A stretch of 37,473 bases of DNA from Anaerolineae bacterium (GTDB taxonomy: Bacteria; Chloroflexota; Anaerolineae; Aggregatilineales; Aggregatilineaceae). The notes under the pieces were generated by a model, which worked only from the letters and a program-made list of their open reading frames with translations, had not been told where the DNA came from and searched no databases. The position numbers and the translations under genes are program-made. The stretch lies in assembly GCA_018432315.1 (NCBI GenBank), contig JAHDLB010000034.1, positions 1-37,473 of the forward strand. Reading direction: 5' to 3'. Positions 19,821-32,030 of this stretch are shown here, piece after piece (the first letter of the stretch is position 1; each line of letters begins with the position of its first letter).

Positions 19821-19895
19821 TTATTTCTTCTGTTTTTTCTTGTCCTGCTTGTTCTTCTTGTCTTTCTTGTCTTTCTTATCGCCTTTTTTAGCCAT
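19821..19895 (-). other. Lys-rich 24-residue tail of ArgF; possible internal start
   Basis: From an in-frame ATG at 19895 the encoded peptide is [18 protein letters not shown] followed by KKKQKK and stop: 14 lysines in 24 residues. GAAAAGGG lies about 8 bases before this ATG, a usable ribosome binding site. The stretch may therefore be made both as the tail of ArgF and as a free basic peptide. The repetitive AAG/AAA coding pattern suggests expansion of a short repeat. It may bind nucleic acid, ribosomes or acidic membrane surfaces; nothing in the sequence decides this. Confidence 0.45.
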
Positions 19896-20822
19896 GCTTG
19901 CACCCTTTTCGTCTAACAAGGTCACCAGGATTCCCTTCTGGGCGTGCAGGCGGTTTTCCGCCTGTGGGAAAAGGCGCGACTGTGGGCCGTCGGCCACGTC
20001 GTCGGTAATCTCCTCACCGCGATGGGCGGGGAGGCAGTGCATCACGATGGCGTGCGAAGCCGCGTGCGCCAGCAGATCGGCGTTCACCTGGTAGGGCGGG
20101 AACACCCGGCGGCGTTTTTCGGCCTCTTCTTCCTGGCCCATGCTGGTCCAGGTGTCGGTGTAGATCACGTCGGCGCCCGTGACGGCGGCGATCGGGTCGG
20201 GCGTGACGGTCACGTCCAGCGTGTCCTGCGAGAGCACGCGCGCCCGCGACAGGATGTATTCTTTGGGCTGGTAGCCGTCGGGGCTGGCGATAGTCACCTT
20301 CACGCCGAACTGGGCGGCGCCCATCAGCAGGCTGGTGAGCACGTTGTTGCTGTCGCCCACGTACGCCAGGTGCAGCCCCTCGAGCTGGCCGAACTCCTCG
20401 TAAATCGTCAGGTAGTCGGCCATGGCCTGGCAGGGGTGGTTGTAATCGGTCAGGCCGTTGATGATCGGCACCGGGCTCCAGCGCGCCAGATCGATCACGT
20501 GGTCGTGGTCGAAGGTGCGCGCCATCACGACATCCACGTAGCCCCCCAGCACGCGCGCGATGTCGGCAATGCTCTCGCGCTTGCCCAGGCCGATCTCCTG
20601 CGGGCTGAGATAAAACGCGTAACCGCCGACGTGCTGCATCGCCATCTCGAAGCTCACGCGGGTGCGCAGCGAGGGCTTCTGGAAGACCATCGCCAGCGAC
20701 TTCCCGGCCAGTCGTGGCGGGTTGCCGCCGGCACGAAACTCCTCTTTGAGCGCCACTGAAAGCCGCAGGATGTCCCACAAATCGCCGGCGGTCCAGTCGG
20801 CCAGATCGAGAAAGTGTTTCAC
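19821..20822 (-). CDS. argF: Ornithine carbamoyltransferase with a lysine-rich C-terminal tail
   Basis: A 333-residue enzyme making citrulline from ornithine and carbamoyl phosphate in arginine synthesis. Diagnostic motifs: carbamoyl-phosphate loop [10 protein letters not shown] (Ser51-Arg55), [11 protein letters not shown], the ornithine-binding SMG loop ([10 protein letters not shown]), and [12 protein letters not shown] with the catalytic Cys. These separate it from aspartate and acetylornithine enzymes. The start is GTG at 20822, with AGGGGAG about 7 bases upstream; the frame stays open further but without family similarity. The enzyme should end near [11 protein letters not shown], yet the frame runs on for 30 residues. 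The last 24 (from an internal Met) contain 14 lysines. An extended -10 promoter lies at 20865-20873. The tail is discussed as a separate feature. Confidence 0.93.
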
Positions 20823-20864
20823 CTCATGCTCCCCTTTGAACAGCGAGTGAGTAAGTTGCTGCGT

Positions 20865-20873
20865 AGTATAGCA
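20865..20873 (-). promoter_or_regulatory. Extended -10 promoter of argF
   Basis: On the minus strand TGCTATACT (20873-20865) has the TGn extension and a 5/6 match to the -10 consensus, 42 bases before the GTG start. No clear -35 box. The remaining intergenic DNA to 21085 shows a -10-like TAGAAT (plus strand, 21023-21028) that may serve the cupin gene. Confidence 0.5.
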
Positions 20874-21085
20874 CAATTTGAACGTGGGCACGTACCCGGT
20901 GGCCTGCCGCCGGGCAATCGTCATGCAGCCCCGGCAGGCCGCGCCCTCACACGGAAATACACGCCCAGCCGTCTCCAATCCTCACGCCGGTTTCCCAGCG
21001 CGCCCTGGCGCAGCCGGTGTGATAGAATCTCGCCATGTGGCAGGGGATAACTGATCATACATGGAGAGGAATGGAGAGGACCAAC

Positions 21086-21648: not shown

Positions 21649-23406
21649 CTACCCGCGTGCAGCGAGCTGAGCTTCCTGGTCGATGGTCCGCCAATCCCAG
21701 TGAGCGCCACCGAACAGGCCGTCCGTCTCGAACGGGCCAGTGTACCACGGCTTCACCAGGACGTAGGTCACGCGCAGGTAAATCGGGATGAAGGGCACTT
21801 CGCCCTCAGGCCCGAAGAACTGCTCTTCGATGCGGTAGTACAGCTCGATACGAGCATCGGGGTCGGATTCCTGCGCCGCCAGCTCGATCAGGTCGTCGGT
21901 CTCGGTGCACGCGCGCTTGAACGAGTTCTCGCTGAATTCGCAGTGCAGCACGTCGCCAACCCAGTTGTTGGCATCACCGTAGTCGGGGCCCCAGCCCAGC
22001 GACCACATGTTGGGACGATCCTCCGGCGGGTTGGCCGGGTCGACGGTCTCGAGCAGCACCGAGAATTCCTGCTGTTCGATGGTGAACAGGTTCGGGTCAC
22101 AGCCCAGGTGCGTTTCCGCGCCCGCAGCCATGAACTCGGCCCAGGTCCCGGCACCGGTGTAGGTCACGATTTCCAGGTTCGGGAAGCCTTCGCAGTTCGG
22201 ATAGCCGGCTTCGGCCATCTGCGCGGCGGCATATTCCGGATCGAAGCCAACGCCCACTTCGTTGATCGGCGGCGCGCCGAACATGCCCGGAGGCGTGAAG
22301 TGGATCATGGGCAGGCCGCGACCCTGCTGAACCTGCTGGATGAAGGAGCCACGATCCAGCGCGGCGTTGAAGGCACGGCGGGCGTGGACGTTGTCGAACG
22401 GCGCCTTGTCGTGCGCGAAGGCCAGGTAGAACACCGCCAGGTCGGACACCTGGAGCAGTTGGTCGGCGTAGGCCGGATCTTCCAGAACCGACTGCAGCTC
22501 GGCGGACGGCACGTTGCTGCGGTCAATCTGGTCGTCCTGGTACAGCGCGAACTGCGTACCAATGTCTTCCACCACGGTGTAGATGATGCGCTCCACGTTG
22601 CCGGGGCCACGCATGTCGGCGGGGAAGAACGGGTTGGCGTAGAACACGCGGCGGACGCCACGCACCCACTCGTCGACCACGAACGCGCCGCTGGTGACGA
22701 TGTTGCCGGGCTCGGTCCAGTTGTCACCGAATTCGTCGATGACTTCCTGCGGAACCGGGCGCATCATCCACATCGGGGTCATGCTCTGGAAGTACCCAGC
22801 CGCAAACTTCAGGGTCACTTCGAGGGTGGTGTCGTCGAGGGCCGTCGCAGCGACCTTGTCGAAATCGGCGTCGGTGAAGTCTTCAACGGGGGTGCTGATG
22901 ACTTCGTCGCAGCCCTGCAGCACGCCGGCCAGAATGTTGCCGTAGTAGGCGTTCAGGCGCGGGTCGCAGGCACGCTTCATGCCGTATTCGACGTCGGCGG
23001 CGGTGATGTTCCGCAGGACGGTCGCCTCATCGGCTACCGGATCCCACTGCACCCACGGAATGTCATCGCGCAGCGTGAACGTCCAGGTCAGGCCGTCATC
23101 GCTCACGGTCCATTCGGTGGCGATCTCAGGACGGATCGCGCCCGGCTGGAGCGGGTCGGTGTCGGTCAGGCCCAGGAACAGGTTCTCGATCGCGTTGATC
23201 GACACAGTGTCGCTGGCGAGCTGCGGATCGAGGGTGCTGATCTGCGAGCTGTCGGTCTGGTAGTTGGTAACCGGCTCGGCCTGGCGCACCACGCTGGTCA
23301 GCGTGATGTCGGCGTTGTTTGCAAGGGTGAAACCGGTGGGCACGAGGGCCAGCGCCATGGACAAAACCATAGCAACCGCCAGTACCCGGCGTGTTTTTTT
23401 AATCAT
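21649..23406 (-). CDS. ABC-transporter solute-binding protein, family 5 (oligopeptide type), orphan
   Basis: A 585-residue exported binding protein of the OppA/DppA class (SBP_bac_5). The signal peptide covers about residues 1-29 (KKTRR, then a hydrophobic core ending FTLA). There is no lipobox Cys, unlike most lipid-anchored family members, so it may be free or held otherwise. Family stretches include LTWTFTLRDDIPW, NITAADVEYGMKR, and ARRAFNAALDRG. The ATG at 23406 has GGAGGA six bases upstream. No permease or ATPase gene is next to it; both neighbours are unrelated. It therefore either serves a transporter elsewhere or binds a signal peptide. The leader contains a four-codon frame with a near-perfect ribosome binding site. 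Confidence 0.92.
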   Translation of the reverse strand: MIKKTRRVLAVAMVLSMALALVPTGFTLANNADITLTSVVRQAEPVTNYQTDSSQISTLDPQLASDTVSINAIENLFLGLTDTDPLQPGAIRPEIATEWTVSDDGLTWTFTLRDDIPWVQWDPVADEATVLRNITAADVEYGMKRACDPRLNAYYGNILAGVLQGCDEVISTPVEDFTDADFDKVAATALDDTTLEVTLKFAAGYFQSMTPMWMMRPVPQEVIDEFGDNWTEPGNIVTSGAFVVDEWVRGVRRVFYANPFFPADMRGPGNVERIIYTVVEDIGTQFALYQDDQIDRSNVPSAELQSVLEDPAYADQLLQVSDLAVFYLAFAHDKAPFDNVHARRAFNAALDRGSFIQQVQQGRGLPMIHFTPPGMFGAPPINEVGVGFDPEYAAAQMAEAGYPNCEGFPNLEIVTYTGAGTWAEFMAAGAETHLGCDPNLFTIEQQEFSVLLETVDPANPPEDRPNMWSLGWGPDYGDANNWVGDVLHCEFSENSFKRACTETDDLIELAAQESDPDARIELYYRIEEQFFGPEGEVPFIPIYLRVTYVLVKPWYTGPFETDGLFGGAHWDWRTIDQEAQLAARG

Positions 23407-23946
23407 TCTAGCTCCTCCCATGAGCTATTCGATGATTTGTGCTGACAACACGAAATACATCTGTTGTGAATCGCTGACGATTGTGACCGACCAGGATAGC
23501 CTCGGCGAGCGTGGTCCGGTTACGAACGCGCCATCACACCTCCTCTCGACTCAAAAACAAACGCTGGATCTGCCAAAAAATCTTTTCTAAACACAAACGT
23601 CGCGGGTGCAAGCAAGCAGCACAACACCTACGACGGTTGGTGTCTACGGGTTGTCAGTGTGGTCGGAATCATGCAGTCAATCATACACAATGGCAACTTT
23701 ATGGAATATACAACAAGACTATTCACAAGTTATAAATCACCTACCGAAAAACCGCAACCGGCGCGTTTGTGCAATTTCATCAAGCGATCTCGCCTATACG
23801 TACTACTCGCAGGTTTGCGGACCGGTTCAAAAGACGTTCGTCGTAAAAACTCCGCCGACCAGTGACAACACACCCCCCTGGCACCGTATAACGGGATGAT
23901 GACGACTGCTGACAACACGTTCATCACCGTTCTACCCCTCCCATGA
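23407..23946. promoter_or_regulatory. Long A/T-rich intergenic region with minus-strand leader elements
   Basis: No supported gene of normal size fills this ~540-base region. On the minus strand, reading towards the binding-protein gene, there is a weak promoter (TTGCCA 23696-23691, 17 bases, CATGAT 23673-23668) and a tiny frame at 23534-23520. TGCTGACAACACG occurs twice in direct orientation (23440-23452, 23907-23919). CTCCCATGAGC also occurs twice (23415-23425, 23937-23947). These paired copies suggest that one end is a remnant duplicate of the other. A minus-strand frame at 23730-23924 (64 codons) has no recognisable product and odd composition. Confidence 0.45.
23520..23534 (-). CDS. Candidate four-codon leader peptide (MARS)
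   Basis: ATG GCG CGT TCG TAA on the minus strand, preceded by AGGAGGTGTG, which has a complete Shine-Dalgarno AGGAGG at good spacing. It lies 113 bases before the ATG of the oligopeptide-binding-protein gene. A ribosome stopping here could affect translation or RNA stability downstream. It may also be chance; only the strong ribosome binding site supports it. Confidence 0.3.
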   Translation of the reverse strand: MARS

Positions 23947-24863: not shown

Positions 24864-25958
24864 TCACTCGATCCACTGCACCTGTCCCGTCGATCCGGCG
24901 TCGTAGCCGCCCAGCGCCGCGATGGCCTCCCCGGCCTCTCCGCTGGCGAACCAGCCGGCCAGCGCCTGCACCGGCGCGGAGTCCCACACCGGCGCGGGGA
25001 TCACGAGATCGTAGCGCTCGGTCGTCAGCGGCACGAAGTCCAGCCCGTAGGCCAGCGCGACCGTTTCGACGCCCAGCCCGGTCCCGGCATCGCCCTGGGC
25101 CACCGCGCGCGCCACCTCCGAATGGGTGGACACGGCGCGGTCGTAACCGTCGATCGCGTCCGCGTCGATCCCCAGCCGGTGGAGCTGCGCATCGAGCCAG
25201 ACGCGCGTCCCGGCCCCGCCCTGGCGGTTGATGAAGTGCAGGCCGGGCTGCGCCAGATCGGTCAGCTCCGCCAGCCCTGCCGGGTTGCCCGGCGGGACCA
25301 TCAGCCCCAGCCGCCGCTGCGCCACCGTCAGCAGGACCACCCGCCGCCCCGGCAAAAAGCGCCGCACGAACGGCGTGTTGTACGTATCCGTTTCGGCATC
25401 CCACAGGTGGCACCCGGCCAGGTCGGCCTCGTATTCGGCCAGCGCGATCAGCCCGCCCAGGCTGCCGGCGAAGGTGATGCGCAGCGTGTGGCCCGGCGCC
25501 AGGTCCGCAAAGTGGGCCGCGATCATCGCGATGGACGGATCGTGGCTGCCCACGAAACGCAGGGCCGGGCCGGTCGCTTCGGGCGGCGCTTCGGACACGG
25601 CCCGCCAGCGGTCGAGCGCCAGCCGCAGCGCCCCTTCGATCTCGCCGGGGGTATACCCGGCGGCCAGCGTGCTCAGCAGGAACGACTCCGCCTCGTGGAC
25701 CAGCGTGGCGCGGCGCAGCGGCGCGTGCGAATCGGGGAGCGTGCTCGCCGCGACGCGCGTGCCCTGCCCCGGTCGCCCCACCACCAGCCCCTGCTGGCTC
25801 AGCTCCTGGTAGGCCCGCTGGACGGTGCCCGGCGCGCAGTTCCACCGCTCGGACATCTCGCGCACCGGCGGCAGCTCGTCGCCGGGCTGGAGCGTCCCGT
25901 ACAGGATCGCCTGCCGGATCGTTTCCGCGATTTCGTGGTACAGCGGCGTTTTGTCCAT
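24864..25958 (-). CDS. GntR-family regulator fused to a periplasmic-binding-protein-like sensor domain
   Basis: A 364-residue cytosolic transcription factor. The winged-helix GntR domain occupies about 1-70 (TPLYHEIAETIRQAILYGTLQPGD; REMSERW; TVQRAYQELSQQGLV). From about residue 125 a type-2 binding-protein fold follows (LRFVGSHDPSIAMIA, GSLGGLIALAEYEADLAGCHLWD, FINRQGGAGTRVWLD). This fits the PBP_like domain (PF12727, from memory), also found in molybdopterin-related proteins. It probably senses a small ligand, perhaps an oxyanion. The ATG at 25958 is chosen because GntR similarity starts there; the frame is open 19 codons further. It is divergent from the two-domain binding protein, with repeated TTAATTG-type sites between them that overlap its own likely -10. 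Confidence 0.88.
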   Translation of the reverse strand: MDKTPLYHEIAETIRQAILYGTLQPGDELPPVREMSERWNCAPGTVQRAYQELSQQGLVVGRPGQGTRVAASTLPDSHAPLRRATLVHEAESFLLSTLAAGYTPGEIEGALRLALDRWRAVSEAPPEATGPALRFVGSHDPSIAMIAAHFADLAPGHTLRITFAGSLGGLIALAEYEADLAGCHLWDAETDTYNTPFVRRFLPGRRVVLLTVAQRRLGLMVPPGNPAGLAELTDLAQPGLHFINRQGGAGTRVWLDAQLHRLGIDADAIDGYDRAVSTHSEVARAVAQGDAGTGLGVETVALAYGLDFVPLTTERYDLVIPAPVWDSAPVQALAGWFASGEAGEAIAALGGYDAGSTGQVQWIE

Positions 25959-25987: not shown

Positions 25988-26071
25988 GGTTAATTGTACA
26001 GCACGCGCACGCCACAGCCTACCGGCCCGCGCCGGAACGCAGCGTGTTAATTGTAACATCTCAATTGACAC
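25988..26071. promoter_or_regulatory. Three TTAATTG-type sites, candidate operators of the GntR regulator
   Basis: GTTAATTGTA occurs at 25989-25998 and again at 26046-26055, 57 bases apart. A third, inverted and weaker copy (TGTCAATTGA, minus strand) lies at 26071-26062. The first contains TACAAT on the minus strand (25998-25993), a likely -10 of the regulator. The third overlaps the -35 of the divergent gene. This geometry suits autoregulation and control of the binding protein. Binding by this regulator is inference. Confidence 0.5.
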
Positions 26072-26093
26072 AACAAGACGTCCCTCTTATACT
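26065..26093 (+). promoter_or_regulatory. Strong promoter of the two-domain binding protein
   Basis: TTGACA (26065-26070), a 17-base spacer, TATACT (26088-26093): a perfect -35 and 5/6 -10 at ideal spacing, among the best promoters in the window. It leaves a ~60-base leader before the ATG at 26161. Confidence 0.8.
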
Positions 26094-26160: not shown

Positions 26161-27528
26161 ATGTTCAAACGATGGATCGTCATAGCGGTGAGCGTCGTGC
26201 TCGTCGCGGCCCCGATGGCGGGCCTTGTCCCGGCGCGCGCGCAGGACGCCGCGCTGAGCGTCCTCGCGCCGGAGTCCGCGCGGGATGCCGTCGAAGCCTG
26301 GGCGAGCGCCTTCGCCGGGGCCGACCTGGCGCTCGCGTTCGCCGAGTCCGGCGCGGCGGTGATCGAGGGGCTCAGCGACGCGGACATCGTGTTCTACGAT
26401 GATCCCGCGACCGAGATCGCGACCGACTGCGCGCTGGGGCGCGTGCACGTTCCCCTGCCCGATCTGGCCGCGCGCACGGTGGCCTGTGACGGCGAGCCCG
26501 GCCCGGACGCGGCGGCCTTTCTGGCATTCGCCGTTTCGCCGGACGGCCAGCAGATCGGTATCGACCTCGGCCTGCTGCCCGATGCCGTCGAGATCGTCGA
26601 CCAGGGCGGCGAGACCGTGAGCGTTCCCCAGCCGGTGCGGCGCATCGCTGCCGCTTACGGCGTGGGCACATTTTACGTCTACGCGGTGGGCGCTGCCGAT
26701 CGGCTGGTCGCCGCGGCCTACCTGGCCGTGCGCGACGAAACCAGCCAGGCGATCATGACGCGCATCGACCCCGACTTCCCCACCATCACCGGCGCCGTGT
26801 CGGTCATCGGGCAGAGCGAGACGAACATCGAAGAGCTGGCCGCGCTCCAGCCGGACCTGATCATGGCGAGCGCGCGCACCGGCTGGCTGGATGCCGCGAT
26901 AGAACTGGGCGTGCCGATCATGCGCTTCGAAGGCGAATCGCCGGAAGCCCTCAAGGACGCGATGAGCATGCTGGGCGCCGCGCTGGGACCCAACGCCACC
27001 TATCGCGCCGAGCAGTATAACGCCTACTACGACCGCGTCCTGGCGGACATCCTGGCCCAAACCGAGCTCATCGAGGACCGGGTATCGGTGTATATGTCCG
27101 GCACCGAGGCGCTGCGCGTCGCCAGCGGCGACATGTACCAGACGATGATGATCGAGGCGGCGGGCGCCGCCTCCGTCAGCGCGGAGCTGACCGGCTTCTG
27201 GAACGACGTAAACCTCGAACAGGTCGCCGTGTGGAATCCGGACGTGATCTTCTTCGTGCCCTATGGCGGGGCCAACGCCGAGGCGTTCCAAACCGAGGAA
27301 TGGGCGATCATCGACGCCGCGCAGCAGGGCCGCATCTACCGCGTGCCCAAGCTCACCGGCCCGTGGGACGCGCCGATCCCCGATTCGATCCTGGGCATCA
27401 TCTGGATGGCCCAGACGCTCTACCCCGACCAGGTGAGCCTGGACTGCGCGACCGAGGCCGAAACGTTCTACGACCTGTTTTACGACTACGCGATCCCCGA
27501 CGACGAGATCGCGATGGTCTGCGGCTGA
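26161..27528 (+). CDS. Exported binding protein: ModA-like half-domain fused to a FecB/BtuF-type domain
   Basis: A 455-residue secreted protein with a signal peptide (about 1-28, ending ARAQ) and no lipobox. Residues ~31-142 look like a shortened ModA-type binding domain: LSVLAPESARDAVEAWASAF, then ALAFAESGAA, ADIVFYDDP, and, after a skip, AFLAFAVSPDGQQIG and LGLLP. ModA normally needs ~230 residues; only segments forming lobe I seem kept. From ~145 a full Peripla_BP_2 domain follows (VEIVDQGGETVSVPQPVRRIAAAYG to YDLFYDYAIPD), the class that binds iron chelates, B12 or metal oxyanions. GGAGAAA precedes the ATG. No permease or ATPase gene is adjacent. It is driven by a strong promoter divergent from the GntR regulator. 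Ligand unknown. Confidence 0.8.
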   Translation: MFKRWIVIAVSVVLVAAPMAGLVPARAQDAALSVLAPESARDAVEAWASAFAGADLALAFAESGAAVIEGLSDADIVFYDDPATEIATDCALGRVHVPLPDLAARTVACDGEPGPDAAAFLAFAVSPDGQQIGIDLGLLPDAVEIVDQGGETVSVPQPVRRIAAAYGVGTFYVYAVGAADRLVAAAYLAVRDETSQAIMTRIDPDFPTITGAVSVIGQSETNIEELAALQPDLIMASARTGWLDAAIELGVPIMRFEGESPEALKDAMSMLGAALGPNATYRAEQYNAYYDRVLADILAQTELIEDRVSVYMSGTEALRVASGDMYQTMMIEAAGAASVSAELTGFWNDVNLEQVAVWNPDVIFFVPYGGANAEAFQTEEWAIIDAAQQGRIYRVPKLTGPWDAPIPDSILGIIWMAQTLYPDQVSLDCATEAETFYDLFYDYAIPDDEIAMVCG

Positions 27529-29760: not shown

Positions 29761-31281
29761 ATGATCGTACAAGATACCCTACAGGATGATGCCGTCGCGC
29801 CCGACAGGCCGCTCATTGTGATTGCATCGAATCGCGGTCCTTTCTCGTTCAAACAGAAGAATAACGGCGAGTTCACCGTCCAGCGGGGCAGCGGCGGTCT
29901 CGTGACCGCCCTGGGGGGATTGGCCGAACGCCACGAGGTCTTGTGGGTGGCGGCGGCGCTCAGCAAAACCGATCGCAAATGGGCCGACATGCACGAGGGC
30001 CGCCCGCAGAACGTCGAGGGCATTTCGCTGCAACTGGTCCAGCCTAGCAAGAATCGCTACGAAAAATACTACAACGTCATCGCCAATCCGCTGCTCTGGT
30101 TCGTCCAGCACCAGCTTTGGGACATCCCGCGCACGCCCGTCCTCACGCGCGACATCTGGAACGCGTGGCGCAACGGGTACGTGGCGGTGAACAAGCAGTT
30201 CGCCGAGGTCATCGCCGATACGGTCAAGGACAGCCGGCGGCCCGTGATCGTCTTCCCGCAGGACTACCACCTCTACCTGGTGCCGCAGTACCTGCGCGAG
30301 ATGCTCGGCGACCGCGTGCAGATCCAGCCGTTCGTGCACATTCCGTGGCCCGGCCCGGACGCCTGGCGCATCCTCTCCGAGGAGATCCGCACGGCGGTGC
30401 TCAAGAGCCTGTTGGCCTCGGACCGGGTCGGCTTCCAGACCAAGAAAGACGCGTTCAACTTCGTGCAGTGCTGCCGGTTTTACATCGACGGCGCCCACTC
30501 GCGCGGCAGCCGCGACGCGATCGACTACCAGGGGCGCCGGGTCGAGGCCCGCGCCTACCCGATCTCGGTGGACGTGGAGAAGATCGAGTCGCTGGTCGAG
30601 GAGCCGCAGGTGCCGCTGCTCAAGGCGCAGCTTCTGAACGCCATCGGCGACCGCAAGCTGATCCTGCGCGTGGACCGCATCGAGCCGAGCAAGAACATCC
30701 TGCGCGGCCTGGAAGCCTACCGCTCGCTGCTGGAGATGCACCCGGAGCATCGCGGGCGCGTGCACTTGCTGGCTCTGCTGGTGCCGTCGCGCATGGAAGT
30801 GTTCGAATACCAGAACTACCTGCAGGAAATCATGGCCCAGGCGGGCATGATCAACGCCGAGTTCAGCGACGAATACTGGGAGCCGGTTCGCATCCTGGTG
30901 GGCGAGAACTATTCGCGCGCGCTGGCCGCCATGCAGATTTACGACGTGCTGCTGGTCAACCCGATCGCGGATGGCATGAACCTGGTCGCCAAGGAGGGGG
31001 CGCTGGTCAACCAGCGCGACGGCGTGATCCTGCTCTCGGAGGACGCCGGGGCGTATTACGAGCTGGGCGAGCACGCGCTGACGATTTCGCCGTTCGACAT
31101 CTATCTGACGGCGGAGGCCATGCACCAGGGGCTGATGATGCCCGTCGAGGAGCGCCACGCGCGCGCCGAAGCCCTGCGCCGCCAGGTGCGCGGCGCCGAC
31201 GTGCGTACGTGGTTCCGCGATCAGGTCGAAGACGCGCTGCAAGCGCTCAACAGCCAGGACAGGAACGATTCGACATCCTGA
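29761..31281 (+). CDS. otsA: Trehalose-6-phosphate synthase (GT20)
   Basis: A 506-residue cytosolic retaining glycosyltransferase joining a nucleotide-glucose and glucose-6-phosphate. GT20 landmarks: SNRGPFSF (donor-loop Arg), FPQDYHLYLVP (Asp), HIPWPGPDAWRI (His), VDRIEPSKN (Arg and Lys; the usual text is VDRLDYSKG), and NPIADGMNLVAKE (Asp, Glu). All expected catalytic positions are present; the Arg/Lys loop differs slightly from the E. coli enzyme. GT20 also includes glucosylglycerol-phosphate synthase, which sequence alone does not exclude, but the trehalose-type phosphatase next door supports OtsA. AAAGGA precedes the ATG. Its last 61 bases overlap the 3' end of otsB on the opposite strand. 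Confidence 0.9.
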   Translation: MIVQDTLQDDAVAPDRPLIVIASNRGPFSFKQKNNGEFTVQRGSGGLVTALGGLAERHEVLWVAAALSKTDRKWADMHEGRPQNVEGISLQLVQPSKNRYEKYYNVIANPLLWFVQHQLWDIPRTPVLTRDIWNAWRNGYVAVNKQFAEVIADTVKDSRRPVIVFPQDYHLYLVPQYLREMLGDRVQIQPFVHIPWPGPDAWRILSEEIRTAVLKSLLASDRVGFQTKKDAFNFVQCCRFYIDGAHSRGSRDAIDYQGRRVEARAYPISVDVEKIESLVEEPQVPLLKAQLLNAIGDRKLILRVDRIEPSKNILRGLEAYRSLLEMHPEHRGRVHLLALLVPSRMEVFEYQNYLQEIMAQAGMINAEFSDEYWEPVRILVGENYSRALAAMQIYDVLLVNPIADGMNLVAKEGALVNQRDGVILLSEDAGAYYELGEHALTISPFDIYLTAEAMHQGLMMPVEERHARAEALRRQVRGADVRTWFRDQVEDALQALNSQDRNDSTS

Positions 31282-32030
31282 ACACCGGATGCCAGCAGGT
31301 CGGCGTTGTCGCGGACGGCGGGCGGCATGTTCGCGGACTCGACGCCCAGCCCCACCGCGTAACAGGCGCCGGTTTCGCGCAGGTGCCGCGCCATGCGCAG
31401 GGCGTCCACGTCGGTCGTGTCGTCGCCCAGGTAGAGCGCGGCGTCCAGGTTGTGGCGCGCGACCAGGTGGTGAAAGGCGCTGCCTTTATTGACATCGACC
31501 GGCGGGCGGATCTCGAACACCATCCGCCCCTGAAACAGCTTGAGGCCGTGCTGGCCCGCGAGGTCCTCGAACACGGGCCCCAACCGGGCATGCACCGCGG
31601 CGGGATCGGCAGTCTGCCGGTAGTGGACCGAGATGGTCGCGCCCTTGTCTTCGACGAGCATACCGGGGACCTGTTCGGCCCGGACCGCGTCCAGCGCCGC
31701 TTCGAGCGCCGGGCGAAACGCTGCCGCTTCCGGCGCGATTTCGATGCGCCCACCGGCCCACCACTCCAAGCCGTGATTACCAACATACACCAGGTCCGGG
31801 ATGCCCACCCGCTCGCGCACGTCCGCCGCCGCACGCCCCGAAATCACCGCGACGAGCGCGAGATGGGACTGCAGATCAGCCAGCAGCGCGCGGCTGCGCG
31901 GCGTCACCTGGGCGGCATCGGGATGATCGACGATTGGGCTGATCGTGCCGTCGACGTCGGTCACCAGGCCCACGCGGGACCCGGAAATCACCGACTGCAG
32001 GAGAGTGGATGTTGCCGACTGCCAGTGCAT
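31221..32030 (-). CDS. otsB: Trehalose-6-phosphate phosphatase (HAD superfamily)
   Basis: A 269-residue phosphatase that removes phosphate from trehalose-6-phosphate. HAD motifs are complete: motif I DVDGTIS (nucleophile Asp25, acid Asp27), motif II VISGR, motif III Lys in DVNKGSAFHHL, and motif IV GDDTTDVDAL. The cap domain carries the family's GNHGLEWW and EDKGATISVHYR. The gene runs against otsA, overlapping its 3' end by 61 bases, so the final ~20 residues are coded opposite otsA. Its ATG (32030) is only 35 bases from the start of the divergent PfkB-like gene, leaving little room for promoters. GAGGGA lies close to the ATG. Confidence 0.93.
   Translation of the reverse strand: MHWQSATSTLLQSVISGSRVGLVTDVDGTISPIVDHPDAAQVTPRSRALLADLQSHLALVAVISGRAAADVRERVGIPDLVYVGNHGLEWWAGGRIEIAPEAAAFRPALEAALDAVRAEQVPGMLVEDKGATISVHYRQTADPAAVHARLGPVFEDLAGQHGLKLFQGRMVFEIRPPVDVNKGSAFHHLVARHNLDAALYLGDDTTDVDALRMARHLRETGACYAVGLGVESANMPPAVRDNADLLASGVQDVESFLSWLLSACSASST

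Follow-up and report, generated by a model that had tools for sequence, protein, structure and literature searches.

When a single exported protein combines parts of two unlike classes of substrate-binding proteins, two questions have to be asked together: what does such a protein capture, and what could a fragment of one class be doing in front of the other? Known importers of molybdate and tungstate employ a binding protein of the ModA class or, rarely, of the FecB class. The gene considered here belongs to an uncultured Anaerolineae bacterium and lies in contig JAHDLB010000034.1 (hereinafter the window, that is, the whole stretch of 37,473 nucleotides that was analysed); it encodes one polypeptide that joins the two classes, with the ModA part reduced to a single lobe. 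The analysis confirmed that this half-ModA domain is lobe I of a ModA/WtpA-type binding protein, lacking lobe II, and that it stands ahead of a complete FecB-type domain (Table 1). Literature searches, confined to open-access PMC, showed no paper on a ModA-FecB fusion among the entries listed.

Table 1. Features of the locus, with positions in the window.
Feature	Position	Strand	Basis
Gene of two-domain exported substrate-binding protein	26161..27528	+	ORF, 455 aa plus stop; Pfam; relatives
Signal-peptide-like segment, residues 1-28	26161..26244	+	Ends ARAQ; boundary set by eye
Half-ModA domain, residues 31-142	26251..26586	+	Profile matches, model, structural match, conservation
FecB/BtuF/MolA-type domain, residues 143-455	26587..27525	+	Pfam match 162-397
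Divergent regulator, GntR DNA-binding and PBP_like domains	24864..25958	-	Pfam above cut-off; start codon by eye
Palindromic operator candidate, GTGTTAATTG-N8-CAATTGACAC	26044..26071		Also seen in promoters of TupA-like genes
Promoter candidate, TTGACA, 17 bp, TATACT	26065..26093	+	Sequence and five-genome alignment

The C-terminal part of the protein is readily recognized: the Pfam model Peripla_BP_2 matches residues 162-397 with an E-value of 3.3e-21 (76.2 bits versus a cut-off of 27.5), so that the complete domain of this type claimed in the original prediction is indeed present. Relatives found in the genomes of the window's family are full-length or nearly so. In the signal-peptide-like segment (residues 1-28) no lipobox was seen by eye; the whole-protein model has a helix at residues 2-20 and low confidence at residues 18-28. 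For residues 1-150, scans with Pfam and NCBIfam returned no matches, and the NCBIfam modA model did not match the window protein up to E 1. Because Pfam is silent on this region, the resemblance to ModA had to be tested with sequence profiles, built from 22 ModA sequences on the one side and from either 16 close homologues or 30 half-ModA N-domains on the other.

The original prediction held that segments from both ends of the ModA chain are kept while lobe II is skipped, and the profiles bear this out. Specifically, the first part of the N-domain of the 16 close homologues aligned with columns 2-46 of the ModA profile with a score of 35.2, all 100 column-shuffled controls staying below this value (best, 18.6), and the last approximately 30 columns aligned, in a comparison run without shuffles, with ModA columns 206-235 at a probability of 90-95%. 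The order of the two segments is that of ModA, and the stretch missing between them is lobe II. Against ModA stripped of lobe II, again without shuffles, the whole N-domain aligned at 96-97.5% (30- and 16-sequence sets), whereas the short form of the domain, found in other Anaerolineae, aligned over its last 30-31 columns only. Since the first part of the short form found no match in the ModA profile (E 0.5), the C-terminal motif is the sole evidence for the short form; with this qualification, the homologues do not look like FecB-type proteins with a plain N-terminal extension devoid of ModA resemblance. When the profile of 30 N-domains was run against all PDB sequences, the top match was PstS (0.0004), with the two segments in reverse order, followed by ModA/WtpA of A. 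fulgidus (0.00048), with both segments in order, each weak alone, and then by ModA of M. acetivorans (0.0015 and 0.0034); lower matches included other type II binding proteins and unrelated entries.

AlphaFold2 with the family alignment gave a mean pLDDT of 92.4 and a pTM of 0.88 for the whole protein, and a pLDDT of 95.8 and a pTM of 0.88 for residues 30-142 alone. Rather than forming an unrelated fold, residues 31-142 superpose in this model on ModA/WtpA: such chains head the VIA-align matches of the N-domain, with 3cfx_A at Z 14.6 and an rmsd of 2.3 over 108 of 113 residues, and the superposition covers the range 41-331 of that chain, that is, both chain ends. With Foldseek, the isolated N-domain had no match below E 0.001 (the best being at 0.013), so that the fold was judged from VIA-align. 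The predicted lobe I fold can thus be considered firm. The runners-up in VIA-align, namely, sulfate-, phosphate- and iron-binding proteins, have Z of 12-13.8, close to the value for ModA/WtpA. It is therefore left to the sequence profiles to tell ModA from its cousins among type II binding proteins, and they favour ModA as the kin of the N-domain.

Could a single lobe bind anything? The usual two-lobed cage of ModA would be out of reach for the half-ModA lobe alone, and it probably binds no oxyanion on its own. The ModA serine position, taken here as that of Ser12 of E. coli ModA, which follows strand 1 and binds the oxyanion, is occupied by serine in 10 of the 16 close homologues, the window protein included, and by other residues in the remaining six; Cys90 and Cys109 are kept in all 16. 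The incomplete conservation of this serine makes it plausible that the half-ModA domain serves for docking or relay and not for binding. An active relay, in which the lobe's own serines and the FecB-type domain would form a second, weak anion site that passes the oxyanion on to the main pocket, could draw on the serine where it is present. Also in its favour, two genomes of the class encode fusions of a full ModA domain with a FecB-type domain, which implies that two binders can stand in series. We nevertheless hold such a relay to be quite improbable: the serine is missing in six close homologues, lobe II is gone, the short form by eye has no serine at the ModA position, and the full fusion arose separately, as judged from the tree.

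Reading of loci from 298 drawn genomes of the class turned up these two full fusions (L039:4316-6205 (+) and L040:30-2351 (+)), and the Pfam and NCBIfam check of this architecture was done on L039, where an XdhC/CoxI gene lies upstream and a further ABC permease gene downstream. Their FecB-type domains form a separate group in the tree (support 99/96); the possibility that the half-ModA proteins derive from them was accordingly rejected. A seven-sequence alignment that included a full fusion misplaced the N-domain and was discarded.

The pairing of two binding classes in one chain, which the original prediction regarded as unusual, was read correctly as architecture; it is not, however, a one-off, since the half-domain is a conserved trait of the family. 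A matching protein occurs in 15 of the 18 genomes of the window's family, the window's own included. Of the 39 loci that came out of a scan of named genomes, 27 belong to Chloroflexota; the other 12, labelled Neomarinimicrobiota, Caldisericota or Bipolaricaulota/Acetothermia, have no N-domain. A midpoint-rooted tree was built from 55 FecB-type domains. One set of 32 rows in it (support 91/100) takes in all 30 half-ModA proteins, along with L036, which sits on a long branch and is of unsure place, and L124. One binding protein (L138:7659-9027 (+)) is split over two reading frames in its MAG, by either a frameshift or an assembly error.

This distribution bears on the possibility that the half-ModA lobe is a functionless remnant of an old fusion and persists for no other reason than that the protein folds with it. 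The length of the lobe varies, from 113-127 residues in the close homologues to 94-100 in the short form of other Anaerolineae; the lobe is absent from L036 (with the above reservation as to its place) and L124, inside the tree set; and among seven pairs of relatives its dN exceeds that of the FecB-type domain by a factor of about 1.3-3.3, all of which would suit a relic. Yet, in the same seven pairs, dN/dS of the N-domain is 0.13-0.27 (versus 0.06-0.17 for the FecB-type domain), and 30 aligned proteins have the lobe, its C-terminal motif being almost invariant among them. On the best reading, the half-ModA lobe is kept by selection, and we regard the relic explanation as unlikely.

Within the window, no permease or ATPase gene like those of the own-genome paralogue described below is found, in keeping with the original prediction that none lies nearby; this absence, however, is peculiar to the window copy and is not a general trait. 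Neighbours were compared in 57 relative loci, some of which are a single contig fetched a second time. In 55 of them the gene of the binding protein is followed by that of a FecCD-type permease, recognised by its similarity to the permease of the paralogue; the other two come from a single contig, fetched twice, which stops within the gene. An ATPase gene is present downstream in 50 of the 57, and in the remainder the contig ends. The paralogue, encoded on contig C61 of the same genome, is 62% identical to the window copy, and its operon holds a FecCD permease (Pfam) and an ATPase. A recent duplication of this paralogue as the source of the window copy was rejected, since in the tree the window copy clusters with proteins from three other genomes (98/82) and not with the paralogue; dN/dS between the two copies is higher than in the seven pairs (0.55 for the N-domain and 0.33 for the rest). 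The neighbouring gene clusters of the relatives gave no hint of the substrate. In 16 loci, including L094:7817-8407 (-) and L111:7332-7955 (+), the operon is directly preceded by a small gene that is similar from locus to locus, and it is PadR-like in both loci tested, L094 and L111. Elsewhere in the window, positions 21649-23421 (-) encode another binding protein (SBP_bac_5), with no permease gene adjoining by eye in the ORF list; convergent overlapping ORFs at 29761-32030 look by eye like a trehalose-6-phosphate synthase (+) and phosphatase (-); and 19821-20978 (-) looks by eye like an ornithine carbamoyltransferase with a lysine-rich C-terminal tail.

Indirect pointers to a substrate come from the control of these genes. 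The RNA class RF01055, as described in PMC2408646, senses Moco, with variants likely triggered by Tuco, and occurs before molybdate transporter genes. Counted at the gathering score, this Mo/W riboswitch lies upstream of the binding protein in 7 of the 29 half-ModA loci scanned (L115 and L035 being left out), namely, in L003, which is the own-genome paralogue, L033, L088, L089, L091, L116 and L138, in the last of which it reaches the start of the binding protein. It is absent at this score from the other 22, the window included, from all 14 scanned loci that carry the small upstream gene, and from all 14 relatives without the N-domain (the upstream sequence of L036 being short). In the window's family, RF01055 occurs in 5 of 18 genomes, six times in all, five of them before a half-ModA operon; the sixth, which is the second one in the window's genome (L152:5197-5379 (+)), precedes an FmdE-type gene. 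The riboswitch also precedes the full fusion L040 and two further loci, L041 and L042; it was not found before L039, L044, L025 and the more distant plain FecB-type relatives L009, L012, L016, L018 and L043, some of these with little upstream sequence. L041:4999-8301 (-) and L042:4118-6553 (+) combine Oxidored_molyb-like front domains (above the Pfam cut-off in L041, below it in L042) with two Peripla_BP_2 stretches in one chain, and are located beside FecCD and ATPase genes.

The window copy itself appears to be controlled differently. The second domain of the divergent regulator is nearest, below the cut-off of the model, to the C-terminal part of a molybdopterin biosynthesis model. Orthologues of this regulator, 68-71% identical when compared in frame, are divergent from TupA-like genes in genomes G232, G672, G673 and G663, and a 57% identical one is found in G666, in a stretch without a TupA-like gene; next to a half-ModA binding protein the regulator is seen in the window only, and in none of the 57 other loci. 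As to the label TupA-like, TupA is the only NCBIfam match of the G232 protein, at 221.6 bits versus a cut-off of 400, and the TupB assignment is likewise below cut-off (153.9 of 320). The core of the palindromic operator candidate, within which the TTGACA (-35) box falls, recurs exactly in G232 and G672 and with 3-4 mismatches in G673, G663 and G664; near the TupA-like gene of G669 it was not found. With up to 3 mismatches, the pattern occurs in the 5.69 Mb genome of the window at this one place, on both strands of the palindrome, with no control match; since the pattern was drawn from the window site and its relatives, only the rarity of the palindrome is informative. Where related genomes have a TupABC-like operon under this palindrome, the window locus has a lone binding protein.

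By fold, the structures nearest to the FecB-type domain are 4ovk, 4hn9, 4pag and MolA (3psa), and by PDB sequence 4hn9, 4ovk and then MolA (3psa/3psh); 4hn9 and 4ovk, which are of unknown specificity or iron-labelled, thus rank above MolA. Curated NCBIfam models are not reached by the window protein (BtuF, 27 of 234 bits; iron dicitrate, 29 of 320; FhuD, 19 of 252), the only matches, to BtuF, F420-0, haem and iron models, being below cut-off. Permeases of the FecCD/BtuCD type usually carry corrinoid, haem or siderophore cargo, and the transporter might carry such another metal complex, the ModA lobe being unrelated to the substrate. Along with the usual cargo, this possibility has in its favour that in NCBIfam the binding protein matches BtuF as well as iron and haem binders, and the permease BtuC, all below the cut-offs, and that the best PDB match bears an iron label. 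The Mo/W riboswitches and the palindrome common to the promoters of TupA-like genes speak against it, as does the absence of any cobalamin riboswitch above the gathering score in the scanned loci, and we consider it very unlikely.

Is there a need for molybdenum or tungsten in these organisms, and who else could supply it? AFOR genes are present in 17 of the 18 genomes of the family, and the window's genome shows four AFOR matches along with seven matches to molybdopterin oxidoreductases. The modA model scores above cut-off in one of the 18 genomes and TupA-like proteins occur in six, so that seven have one or the other; in the window's genome, neither a modA match nor a TupA-like protein was found. 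The best SBP_bac_11 match there is a sulfate-binding protein, above cut-off, which could serve for molybdate; the second stays under every NCBIfam cut-off and comes closest to phosphonate and thiamine models, and the others are the regulator of the window and three weaker ones on contigs C6, C3 and C30. The half-ModA/FecB-type system may be a main route of Mo/W uptake in the family.

Taken together, the fold, the resemblance to MolA, the riboswitches and the regulator all indicate an importer of molybdate or tungstate. On balance, we favour, with moderate confidence, the explanation that a MolBCA-like importer for molybdate and/or tungstate has this protein, with its retained half-ModA lobe, as the substrate-binding component; relatives and gene controls suggest that molybdenum or tungsten is what the half-ModA/FecB-type protein captures. 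The importer would be of type II, with a BtuCD fold. The best reading of the window copy is that of a spare binding protein under tungstate-type control: when tungstate or molybdate is scarce, the regulator would leave its operator and extra binding protein would be made, the FecB-type domain of which would close on the oxyanion and hand it over to the permease encoded with the paralogue on contig C61. Retained in folded form, the half-ModA lobe would most likely help in stabilising or in docking, with the FecB-type domain or the permease as its partner, rather than bind by itself. Several observations weigh against this explanation: the lack of a riboswitch above the gathering score in 22 of the 29 loci, the sub-cut-off TupA and TupB assignments, the higher rank of 4hn9 and 4ovk, the sub-cut-off matches to BtuF, F420-0, haem and iron models, the sulfate-binding protein of the genome, the occurrence of the regulator beside the binding protein in the window only, the higher dN/dS between the two copies and, as regards the use of the C61 permease, the clustering of the window copy with proteins from other species.

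A bolder possibility, which we deem highly improbable, is that the riboswitch-linked BtuCD-type importers of Anaerolineae take ligand-bound molybdenum or tungsten, in a pterin cofactor or a metal chelate, and that interchangeable front modules (full ModA, half ModA, Oxidored_molyb-like domains) load the FecB-type domain. If true, half of a type II binding protein would have been re-used as a loading or docking module, and we know of no other such case. The conserved half-ModA arrangement itself provides a natural test of the capabilities of a single lobe of a periplasmic binding protein.

How, then, does this system relate to the known ones? The FecB-class precedent for molybdate is MolBC-A of Haemophilus influenzae, described as a type II importer, whose binding protein MolA (HI1472, PDB 3psa/3psh) binds molybdate and tungstate (PMC4031551). 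The two are alike in that a FecB/BtuF-type binding protein goes with a FecCD-type permease and an ATPase, here those of the paralogue and the relatives; they differ in that a half-ModA lobe, for which no match to MolA was seen, here precedes the FecB-type domain, and in that the window copy has no adjoining permease. With ModA/WtpA, the N-domain shares the predicted lobe I fold and the terminal motifs; unlike them, it has no lobe II and no match to the NCBIfam modA model, and its partner permease is of another class. With the TupABC-like transporters of related genomes, the window locus shares the same divergent GntR/PBP_like regulator and the palindrome, whereas the divergent gene is TupA-like (below the model cut-off) there and half-ModA/FecB-type here. 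Finally, L039, L040, L041 and L042 likewise have a Mo-related module in front of a FecB-type domain, this module being a full two-lobed ModA in the separate fusion of L039 and L040, and an Oxidored_molyb-like domain, in place of half ModA, in L041 and L042.
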